In this document: piece after piece, positions 8,879 to 33,087 of the stretch | Numbering within the stretch: position 1 is the first letter of the stretch | How the letters are laid out: every line of letters starts with the position of its first letter | Assembly: GCA_902767275.1 (NCBI GenBank) | Contig: CACXGY010000081.1 | Span: 1 to 33,299, forward strand | Direction of reading: 5' to 3' | DNA from: an uncultured bacterium | GTDB taxonomy: Bacteria; Cyanobacteriota; Vampirovibrionia; Gastranaerophilales; Gastranaerophilaceae | DNA length: 33,299 bases | Notes under the pieces: generated by a model | Told to the model about the DNA's origin: nothing | Seen by the model: only the letters and a program-made list of their open reading frames with translations | The model's database searches: none | Made by a program: the position numbers and the translations under genes

Positions 8879-9979
8879 TTATGCGTTGAAACTCTTAAAT
8901 GATCTGTCTATATTTTTACTTACAATTTGTTTGACAGAATCGTATTCTGTTTTTAATGCATTGTGCTGCGAATCAATTCGAGCGAGTTGTAAATCGAGTT
9001 TAGTTTCTTTTGCATCAATATCGCTTAAGACTTTTTCATATTTAGCCGATGCTTTTGCAATCAATTCTGTGTTTGAAACTTCCTGTAATTCGGTATCAGT
9101 TGCGACACTGGATTCTGCAAAAATGTTTACTTTGTTTTGATTAAATAATGTACTTTCTTTTGTAAATTTAAAGAGTTGAACTTCGCCGCTGTTTAACTTA
9201 TCTGTCAACCAATCTCTGTCAGTAGCATTTTGTGCACTGATAGGACAGAAACCTCTGCCTGTTATAATATTATCGTTATCATCTTTATAACCGATTATTT
9301 GGTAATAAATTGCTTTCCAGTAATCGTGATTACCGTCTTTTTTCATTTGTGCGATGTATTCATCGTCTTCATTAATATCTATTCTTGCCGAATATAAATA
9401 ATTCTTTGCAACTGTTAATAAGAAATCTTGTTCTGACGGCATTTCAGAATAGTATTGAGTTCTCCAATAACTTTCTTTGCCATCATCTTTTAATGCTTGA
9501 ATGATTGCATCATCACTCAAATTACGTTTTTCATCATCATTTACATATACTCTTTCTCTTGCTACAGTAACCAAATACTGTTTTAATTTTTCTTCATCAG
9601 AAAGACTTGTATTTGATTTAATGGCATCACGAACTGAATCAGAATGATGCGGATCAAAACCGAGTTTTGATGCAACTTGTTCAGGTAAATAAATTTGACC
9701 TGTAGAAGAATTTGTAATTGTATACAAAGAGTGTAATGCTCCTGTATTTGCCATAATCATATTTGTATAGGTAATATCTTGGAATTCTTTACCGCTTGTT
9801 GTAACAACAGCCATTTGTAATTTTGTAGAATCCAAAGCGTCTTCATATTCCTCAAAAGCATTGTTTTTGAGGTTTACTAAATCAAGTTTAGAGTATTGTA
9901 GTCCCTGTGCTTGGAACTCCAAGTCATGCATTCTTGATGTTAATGACAGCAAACGTGCCTGTGACGCTGACATACCCAT
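8879..9979 (-). CDS. Coiled-coil protein with conserved ends, MGxSxSQARLL family (paralogue of 31141-33087)
   Basis: 366 residues, with AAGGAGA before the ATG. Residues 1-55 (start MGMSASQARLLSLTSRMH) and about 256-366 (WLTDKLNSGE..., then a long helical tail ending SFKSFNA) match the ends of the protein from 31141-33087. The central part does not. Between them lies an internal duplication: residues about 136-178 and 187-227 both run L-x-TVA...Y...DD...ALK/MKKDG...YW...YY. No signal peptide or membrane segment is seen. The layout of conserved terminal helices around a variable centre resembles flagellin-type and other axial proteins, but no homology to flagellin is claimed. I recall this N-terminus from Gastranaerophilales proteins, unchecked. 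A sigma-28-like element lies upstream. Confidence 0.8.
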   Translation of the reverse strand: MGMSASQARLLSLTSRMHDLEFQAQGLQYSKLDLVNLKNNAFEEYEDALDSTKLQMAVVTTSGKEFQDITYTNMIMANTGALHSLYTITNSSTGQIYLPEQVASKLGFDPHHSDSVRDAIKSNTSLSDEEKLKQYLVTVARERVYVNDDEKRNLSDDAIIQALKDDGKESYWRTQYYSEMPSEQDFLLTVAKNYLYSARIDINEDDEYIAQMKKDGNHDYWKAIYYQIIGYKDDNDNIITGRGFCPISAQNATDRDWLTDKLNSGEVQLFKFTKESTLFNQNKVNIFAESSVATDTELQEVSNTELIAKASAKYEKVLSDIDAKETKLDLQLARIDSQHNALKTEYDSVKQIVSKNIDRSFKSFNA

Positions 9980-31140: not shown

Positions 31141-33087
31141 ATGGGATTATCTTCTTCACAAGCAAGATTATTAAACCTCACAAGCAGAATGCATCAGATT
31201 GAATACAAGGCTGCTAAAATTGAGGCTGAAAAATTGCAGATGGCAAATGAATCTCGCCGTGTGCATGAAGATTATTTATTCGCTTTAGAACAAAGTAAAA
31301 TCCAAGTTAAAGTTTTGAATACAGACGGTTCAATAGATTATATTGATGCAACTTATAATATTCTTACAGAAAGAGGATATCAATTAAAACTTGAAGGCGA
31401 AGATAAAGAGATTGTATCTGAGCAAACCGCACATAATTATGAAACTGCAAATGGCAATCAAGATTATTTTGTTGCCTTAGAAACCGGTAGAGTTACAGAT
31501 ACGGATCAAACGGTAAATGGCTATAAAGAGGTATATACAGCAGATCAACTTGCAGCGGTGTTATCATCTTCAACCATTACAAGTAACGTCAGATTGATGT
31601 CTGATATAAATATGTCTGGTATGAATATTTCTCCTAAGATGTTATACAATGCTGTTTTTGATGGGAACGGACATTCAATTACCGGTTTGAGTAAGGCATT
31701 ATTTTCTTACATATATGGAAATAATGCAGTTGTAAAAAACTTGAATGTATCAGGCAATAGTTCAAGTAACGCTATTTTAGCAAATACACTAAGCGGAGGA
31801 AAAATTGAAAATGTAAAAGTGTCTGGAAGTGTAAATTCTTCACAAGATAACGTTGGTGCATTGGTTGGTACTATGAACAGCGGTACAATAAATTCTTGTT
31901 CTGTTGATGCATCAGTCGTTTCAACTAAGTCTGTAGTAGGTGTATTAGTTGGACAAGTAAAGGGCGGCAGTATTTCTAATTGTTCTGCCAAAGGTACTGT
32001 TCATGGGGATAATAAACTTGGAGGATTTGCAGGTACAATACAAAATGCTACAGTATCAAATTGTTCTTCAAATTCAAATGTAACAGGTACGTATCTTATT
32101 ATAGATAATAAGTGGGGATATGATGCTCAAGTTGGTGGTTTTGCCGCTTCTGTAAGTGCAAGTACCATCAGTTATTGTTCTTCATCAGGTGATACATACG
32201 CAGAGGGATGTTTATCAGGTGGGTTTGTTTCTTATGCTTATGATAATACAATAATTCAAAATTGTGATTCGTATGTAAATGTACATGCTAATACATCCGG
32301 AACTTATGGTAATTATACGTATACAGATCCAAATACAGGACAACAAGTGAATAGAGGCACGGCACCTTTGGTAGCGGGTTTTATTGGTGGTGTGCATGGC
32401 GTAAATATATCAAATTCAAATGCGTATGGCAGCGTTGACATTAATGATACTACAGCAGCACAAAATATTACATATGGTGGATTTGTCGCAGGTGTTACGG
32501 ATAGAAATAGTTCAAATACAATAAGCAATTGTTATACTGCGATTCCTGACTCTGATGCTCATTTTGTCAATAGTCCTACTACAGATATTAGTACTCAAAA
32601 TGTTCAATCAACACCTGTTGGTAACAGTATAAGTGTAGCACCACCTGTGATAAATCCGACCACAACCGTAGATGATTCCGGGTCCGACGAAGCAAGAGAT
32701 CTTTTCAATAGAATGGCTGCAAACGGGTATGCTACAATGGAAGAAGATGACCCTAGAATTGAGTACGGAGATGATAATAAATGGCTTACTAATATGGTAA
32801 ATGAAGGACAGTTATTTATTTATAAACCTGTTGATTTTCAAGAGGAATTATATCAAGTCAGTGTTGCCGTTGATACAAACTTGCAAGAGGTAGAGGACAA
32901 ATCCCTATTACGCAAAGCGGAAGCAAAATACGAAGCGGATATGAAACGTATTGACTTGAAAGACAGAAAGTTTGATTATGACCTTGCTGCTCTTGATAAC
33001 GAAAGAAACGCTATCAAACAAGAGATTGAAACTTTGAAAACAGTAGCAAAAGATAATGTCGAACGTACATTCAAGTTGTTCTCATAA
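31141..33087 (+). CDS. MGxSxSQARLL-family protein with GLUG beta-helix centre
   Basis: The ATG at 31141 (MGLSSSQARLL) is chosen because it aligns with the start of the paralogue at 8879-9979; a GTG at 31099 would add 14 residues. 648 residues. The N-terminal ~60 are helical. About 190-470 form a Ser/Asn/Gly-rich repeat region with GLUG-type turns near residues 238, 266, 293, 331, 360, 411 and 445 (VGALVG, VGVLVG, LGGFAG, VGGFAA, GGFVS, AGFIGG, GGFVAG), roughly 28-residue steps at first. This predicts a beta-helix as in adhesins. From about 540 the chain again matches the paralogue (WLTNMVNEGQ, TNLQEVEDKS, a long helix ending ERTFKLFS). No signal peptide, so export would need a dedicated system. 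Confidence 0.82.
   Translation: MGLSSSQARLLNLTSRMHQIEYKAAKIEAEKLQMANESRRVHEDYLFALEQSKIQVKVLNTDGSIDYIDATYNILTERGYQLKLEGEDKEIVSEQTAHNYETANGNQDYFVALETGRVTDTDQTVNGYKEVYTADQLAAVLSSSTITSNVRLMSDINMSGMNISPKMLYNAVFDGNGHSITGLSKALFSYIYGNNAVVKNLNVSGNSSSNAILANTLSGGKIENVKVSGSVNSSQDNVGALVGTMNSGTINSCSVDASVVSTKSVVGVLVGQVKGGSISNCSAKGTVHGDNKLGGFAGTIQNATVSNCSSNSNVTGTYLIIDNKWGYDAQVGGFAASVSASTISYCSSSGDTYAEGCLSGGFVSYAYDNTIIQNCDSYVNVHANTSGTYGNYTYTDPNTGQQVNRGTAPLVAGFIGGVHGVNISNSNAYGSVDINDTTAAQNITYGGFVAGVTDRNSSNTISNCYTAIPDSDAHFVNSPTTDISTQNVQSTPVGNSISVAPPVINPTTTVDDSGSDEARDLFNRMAANGYATMEEDDPRIEYGDDNKWLTNMVNEGQLFIYKPVDFQEELYQVSVAVDTNLQEVEDKSLLRKAEAKYEADMKRIDLKDRKFDYDLAALDNERNAIKQEIETLKTVAKDNVERTFKLFS

Follow-up and report, generated by a model that had tools for sequence, protein, structure and literature searches.

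Two proteins encoded in one stretch of bacterial DNA have their ends in common and unrelated centers, which raises the question of what such a family is for and how its members might leave the cell. The stretch (33,299 nucleotides, hereafter the window) comes from an uncultured bacterium of the Gastranaerophilaceae (GenBank assembly GCA_902767275.1, contig CACXGY010000081.1, positions 1 to 33,299), within the order Candidatus Gastranaerophilales. The reading that we favor, with a probability of roughly 0.58, is that both proteins, P0001 and P0002, belong to a Gastranaerophilales family that leaves the cell via a second, non-flagellar, flagellum-derived type III machine, as axial-like subunits or as displayed cargo. 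We infer the export, the use of this second machine and the assembly of a filament from several independent indirect lines.

The two open reading frames (ORFs) and their parts, with lengths in amino acids (aa) and model confidence as predicted local distance difference test (pLDDT), are the following:

8879..9979, minus strand: family member 1 (P0001), 366 aa, an ORF whose ends match profiles A1 and A2
9833..9979, minus strand: conserved N-terminal helix of P0001, residues 1-49, starting MGMSASQARLLSLTSRMH (alignments A1 and A4; AlphaFold2 helix 2-49, pLDDT mostly >90)
9302..9583, minus strand: variable center of P0001, within which a helical module is weakly duplicated (residues 133-177 / 184-226)
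9185..9211, minus strand: W-L-T-x-x-x-N-x-G block of P0001, residues 257-265, directly before the beta strands flanking the C helix (model strand 267-279)
8885..9070, minus strand: conserved C-terminal helix of P0001, residues 304-365, ending NIDRSFKSF (alignment A2; AlphaFold2 helix 304-365)
31141..33087, plus strand: family member 2 (P0002), 648 aa, an ORF related to P0001 by BLASTP
31141..31356, plus strand: conserved N-terminal end of P0002, residues 1-72 (BLASTP, profile alignment)
31516..32580, plus strand: GLUG-repeat center of P0002, a probable beta-solenoid (Pfam PF07581, E 3e-12, three stretches)
32773..33084, plus strand: conserved C-terminal end of P0002, residues 545-648, from the W-L-T block through TFKLF (BLASTP, profile alignment)

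The original prediction, made from these letters alone, was that the two proteins have common ends and unrelated middles, and both points were borne out. By BLASTP, the N-ends share 44% identity over residues 1-72 (E 4e-15), and residues 254-364 of P0001 share 38% identity with residues 545-647 of P0002 (E 3e-19); the W-L-T-x-x-x-N-x-G and DT-x-LQEV blocks and the endings SFKSF and TFKLF are all present. The centers show no similarity (best E 0.18), the one containing a weakly duplicated helical module (33% identity across 45 residues, 133-177 vs 184-226) and the other GLUG repeats. The nearest relatives of P0001 lie in L082, L083, and L084; the best tblastn segment of L082 is 47% identical. 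The ends of the two proteins have no meaningful match in Pfam, NCBIfam, PHROGs, or PDB, and the Pfam, NCBIfam, and PDB searches yielded no known cytosolic family, the result that the prediction had named as counting against it. The PDB and PHROGs sequence matches that did appear were at chance level or generic coiled coils and were discarded.

Both ends are carried by 113 of the 1,837 ORFs of the fetched loci, in proteins of 108-984 aa. In 109 of these 113 proteins, the C-end match reaches to within 0-2 residues of the C-terminus. The N-end match begins at residue 1 in 88; in most of the others, the start codon looks to have been placed too far upstream. Only one end was found in a few ORFs (10 with the N-end, four with the C-end), and those inspected were contig ends or split frames. 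The invariant residues of the N-end (M1, G2, S6, Q7, R9, L11, and R16) all lie within one predicted helix. The centers span from none to ~850 aa, and those of 107 of the 113 proteins fall into seven BLAST groups, the biggest with 75 members. Known domains are few: among 81 scanned centers there are Glug (three), Peptidase_C2 (a calpain-type protease, two), HemolysinCabind (RTX, two), FapA (two), and M26_N (one) domains; compared with other ORFs, the centers are enriched in N/T/S/G/Y/D and depleted in K/R/I/L. This composition and some of the domains suggest that the centers are surface-like or extracellular. Conserved paired ends with swapped centers are confirmed far beyond chance, and this architecture and the paralogy of the family are direct observations.

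The search with end profiles that had been proposed for finding further members gave about 20 in the source genome and 1-23 in each of the 57 order genomes searched. In the source genome, a search with the window proteins returned 35 matching stretches, ORF extraction gave 17 members plus two partial ones at contig ends, and the N-end profile marked 21 places, three of which were not resolved into full genes. One family gene of this genome (L033:4729-7667) is split into two overlapping frames of 232 and 749 aa, by a frameshift or an assembly error. The expected lack of a cleaved signal peptide is supported as well, since hydropathy over 12-residue stretches within the first 35 residues peaks at 0.66 on average, vs 2.49 in signal-peptide-like ORFs.

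An N-terminal xFKG motif was considered as a second export signal and dropped, being just 2.2-fold enriched in one context. Several otherwise different proteins have at their start a long stretch, rich in N/S/Q, that closes with xFKG (window:17455-18819, L053:11920-15397, and L056:12426-14699).

The N-end profile was positive in 57 of 58 relatives, with 1-23 copies each, and the sole exception lies outside the order; that is, all 57 order genomes searched have the family, including 26 without flagellin. Thus, the family does not track the flagellum. In a sample of 214 genomes of the phylum, 95 have the family, all within the taxonomic family of the source organism, and none of the other 119 has a member, FHIPEP genes being present in 20 of these. 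A few family-bearing relatives are filed as Fusobacterium or Acinetobacter and are most likely misnamed bins.

The prediction had also described the proteins as built like flagellin and suggested comparing their ends with flagellin D0/D1. In the AlphaFold2 model of P0001 (mean pLDDT 86, with low confidence around residues 110-180), two long terminal helices (2-49 and 304-365) are flanked by strands (52-60, 63-68, 267-279, and 282-290), and the center is inserted between them. Foldseek against PDB gave nothing significant (best E 0.49) and no flagellin among the 50 best; Flagellin_N and Flagellin_C (PF00669/PF00700) do not match P0001 or P0002 in Pfam or NCBIfam with E up to 1; and PDB sequence searches of the ends returned nothing past generic coiled coils. 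Membership in the flagellin family is therefore not supported, and the likeness concerns the plan only. It is this same plan, terminal helices with an inserted center, that speaks for strongly diverged flagellin or hook-type homologues forming the filament of an ordinary reduced flagellum, an explanation that we consider very improbable, as neither profiles nor folds link the proteins to flagellin and flagellated relatives carry normal flagellins and the family together. For the ends-only protein (108-114 aa), a helical hairpin is predicted (pLDDT 82). The IpaB coiled coil heads its PDB fold matches (E 0.02), with numerous other coiled coils behind it; helical hairpins find matches in many proteins, and this one is not diagnostic. 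The family may still work like an axial protein.

As for a possible exporter, the Flagellin_N profile search found no flagellin in the source genome or its genus. This genome has no canonical FlhA and carries one full divergent set (FlhA/FlhB/FliP/Q/R/O, FliF/E/H/I, and a FliM/N-like ring), located as follows:

C52 of the source genome: FlhA2, FliH2, FliE2, FliF2, and a FliG-like gene
C6 of the source genome: FliR2, FliQ2, FliP2, FliO2, and a FliM/N-like (SpoA) protein
C31 of the source genome: FlhB2
C69 of the source genome: FliI2 (export ATPase)

This second set comprises a complete export gate (FlhA, FlhB, FliP, FliQ, and FliR) together with an MS ring (FliF2), an export ATPase with stator (FliI2 and FliH2), and a C-ring protein (the FliM/N-like SpoA protein). 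The FHIPEP searches distinguished up to three FlhA types within the order: the canonical one (~860-890 bits), confined to flagellin-bearing genomes among the matches listed; a second one, FlhA2 (~670-735 bits), in nearly all 57 genomes; and a truncated C-terminal form (~480-510 aa), also in nearly all. At L057:10544-12004 and L063:9711-11189, a protein of 486-492 aa corresponding to the C-terminal (cytosolic) part of FlhA is encoded near Omp85-family and OmpH/Skp-like genes. FliP, FlhB, FliF, and the export ATPase FliI occur in two copies in flagellated relatives and generally in one, weaker-scoring copy in non-flagellated ones, with gaps in incomplete genomes. The second set thus sits beside the canonical set in flagellated relatives and is the sole set kept in the others; the machine genes and their retention after loss of the flagellum are plain results. 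G112 of the phylum sample, an order genome that is 99% complete, has seven family members and no full-length FHIPEP match (best 2.8e-48), and is either an exception to the universality of FlhA2 or a case of a broken gene.

In NCBIfam, FlhA2 scores 702 bits as flagellar, under the cut-off of 772 (the canonical FlhA of G044 reaches 873), and 589 bits as SctV, under the cut-off of 692. In the FlhA tree, read without three very long branches that stem from mistakenly picked ORFs, FlhA2 forms its own clade, which adjoins FlhA from three f9 genomes and is separate from FlhA1. The second set is a coherent, order-wide, separate old lineage rather than a copy of the canonical set. Rod-type matches number 1-4 in non-flagellated genomes vs mostly 6-9 otherwise. 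In deep-branching genomes (L193:11097-13944), FlgF/FlgG-like, FlgB-like, and FlgC-like rod proteins and a lytic transglycosylase are encoded in the fliE2-flhA2 operon. Of the lineage-specific export system that had been envisaged for these proteins, a candidate machine has been found; their kinship with flagellin is not supported.

These genes have been read in another way. Incomplete flagellar genes in Melainabacteria were published as loss or genome reduction (Di Rienzi 2013; Soo 2014; PMC3787301, PMC4040986): MEL.A1 is without filament, cap, hook-filament junction, and L and P rings, and the remaining genomes of Soo et al. (2014) hold just a subset of flagellar genes. The remaining genes could accordingly be decaying remnants and the family an unrelated coiled-coil scaffold, intracellular or exported otherwise, which would fit members being mostly unlinked to machine genes and end helices resembling generic coiled coils in PDB searches. 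We find this improbable: nearly all genomes of the order hold the second set complete and intact, and it is a separate old lineage; decay would not preserve the same set across dozens of genera; and the extracellular-looking composition and domains of the centers speak against a scaffold.

Some genomes connect the family and the machine by gene order. In several genera, a cassette on one strand, consisting of a family member, a 272 aa protein (p272), a 90 aa protein, and the ends-only member, precedes fliE2-fliF2-fliG2-fliH2-flhA2 by ~9-16 kb with few genes in between. Cassette and operon lie on one strand in 19 flhA2-containing loci (in a few, one small gene is unlabelled by profile), and one further flhA2 locus shows just the last part of the cassette, where the contig ends. 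Most cassette loci (14 and the first example) were picked for a member near flhA2, so that their share is not an unbiased estimate; the full cassette is also present in four loci taken without that condition (L188, L189, L204, and L205). In the source genome, the cassette lies elsewhere (C51, L041) and another member is ~10 kb from flhA2 (C52). The p272 protein (L041:2972-3823, L081:1847-2665; 272-283 aa), often directly after a family member, is highly conserved and glycine-rich with hydrophobic stretches and has no Pfam match; it is present in 53 of the 57 order genomes, in single copy in nearly all, and is absent from the outsider genome. A pore or translocator-like role is conceivable. Proximity to machine genes in the source genome alone (three members within ~10 kb) was set aside because, with ~20 copies in 1.8 Mb, it is not clearly above chance.

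Under the reading that we favor, the machine would be built from FlhA2, FlhB2, FliP2/Q2/R2/O2, FliF2, FliE2, FliH2, FliI2, and the FliM/N-like ring, with rod proteins as well in deep-branching relatives. The paired end helices would act as a common export and assembly module, like the terminal helices of axial proteins, and the swapped center would be the displayed or delivered part (GLUG solenoid, protease-like, RTX-like, and others). The bare polymer or needle-like subunit may be the ends-only member of 108-114 aa, with the longer members serving as minor, decorated subunits or as cargo. Export-only substrates are expected to need mainly the N-end, and the constant pairing of both ends at the true termini favors an axial over an export-only substrate. 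In axial substrates, export signals are located in the N-terminal D0 domain, together with a C-terminal signal (PMC10936197).

It is also conceivable, if unlikely, that the proteins are only cargo (effectors or adhesins) of the second machine, with no filament, the conserved C-helix being a chaperone- or tether-binding site. The diverse centers with protease-like, RTX, and GLUG domains and the many copies per genome would agree with this, and so would the members encoded at a prophage edge, where effector genes of other systems are often found. On the viral contigs L163, L164/L165, and L167-L169 and at two loci of metagenome-assembled genomes (L144:3312-8399 and L150:3798-9638), a member of 545-773 aa, where complete, directly follows a terminase large subunit, identified by PHROGs, and a 75-96 aa protein. 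A portal-like gene, labelled from gene order and inspection rather than from a profile match, lies upstream where the contig reaches, and in L150 apparent host genes stand directly on the other side of the member. The strict joint conservation of both ends and the ends-only member fit co-assembly better.

Several observations weigh against the export of axial-like subunits by the second machine. No known axial protein was matched by fold or sequence (PDB sequence and Foldseek searches), and the FliG-like gene matches weakly. Most members, both window ones included, stand alone in the genome at a distance from machine genes; linkage through the cassette is confined to some genera of one taxonomic family and could be inherited from one event. 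Three same-class f9 genomes have an FlhA of the FlhA2 clade and no detectable family member. Finally, family and machine are both order-wide, so that common ancestry confounds their joint occurrence.

In a wider and more tentative form, which we would not yet count as the likelier outcome, gut Gastranaerophilales might operate a second surface or injection system of flagellar origin, whose own modular subunit family has fixed polymerization ends, swappable displayed centers, and new members brought in by prophages, so that the published flagellar decay would instead be a conserved working apparatus. If true, a common and largely uncultured gut order has an unrecognized surface or secretion machine and a large repertoire of exposed proteins that diversifies quickly. 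This would bear on contact with hosts, protists, and neighbors, on flagella turning into secretion systems, and on the reading of genomes annotated as flagellum-less, and it would make about a dozen machine genes and the cargo family directly testable. Among open-licence papers, including those on Melainabacteria and type III secretion (titles and abstracts), no published report of the family or the machine was found, and the candidate exporter for the family would be a new finding.

Compared with known systems, the family resembles flagellar axial proteins (FliC, FlgK/L, and FlgE) in its helical conserved N- and C-termini, variable center, lack of signal peptide, and the flagellar-type export gate nearby. 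It differs in having no detectable sequence or fold similarity to them, as many as 23 copies scattered through a genome, and an ends-only member, and in coexisting with true flagellins in motile relatives. The conserved cassette, where the small helical-hairpin member lies beside p272 (272 aa, glycine-rich, and hydrophobic), recalls needle, tip, or translocator substrates of injectisomes, as does IpaB as best fold match; however, the IpaB match (E 0.02) is not significant, FlhA2 stays below the SctV cut-off (589 vs 692 bits), and no dedicated secretin was identified, no search aimed at one having been made. Buchnera is reported to keep flagellar basal bodies and the export gate without filaments in a non-motile lineage (PMC8109811). 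Here, too, export gate and basal-body genes are kept in a lineage without flagellin; unlike in Buchnera, they form a second divergent set that stands beside the canonical one in motile relatives and has a large associated protein family. The published Melainabacteria remnants come from organisms of this kind and apparently comprise the genes at issue here; those papers took them as genome reduction, whereas in the present analysis they make up one coherent second set that the order has conserved.
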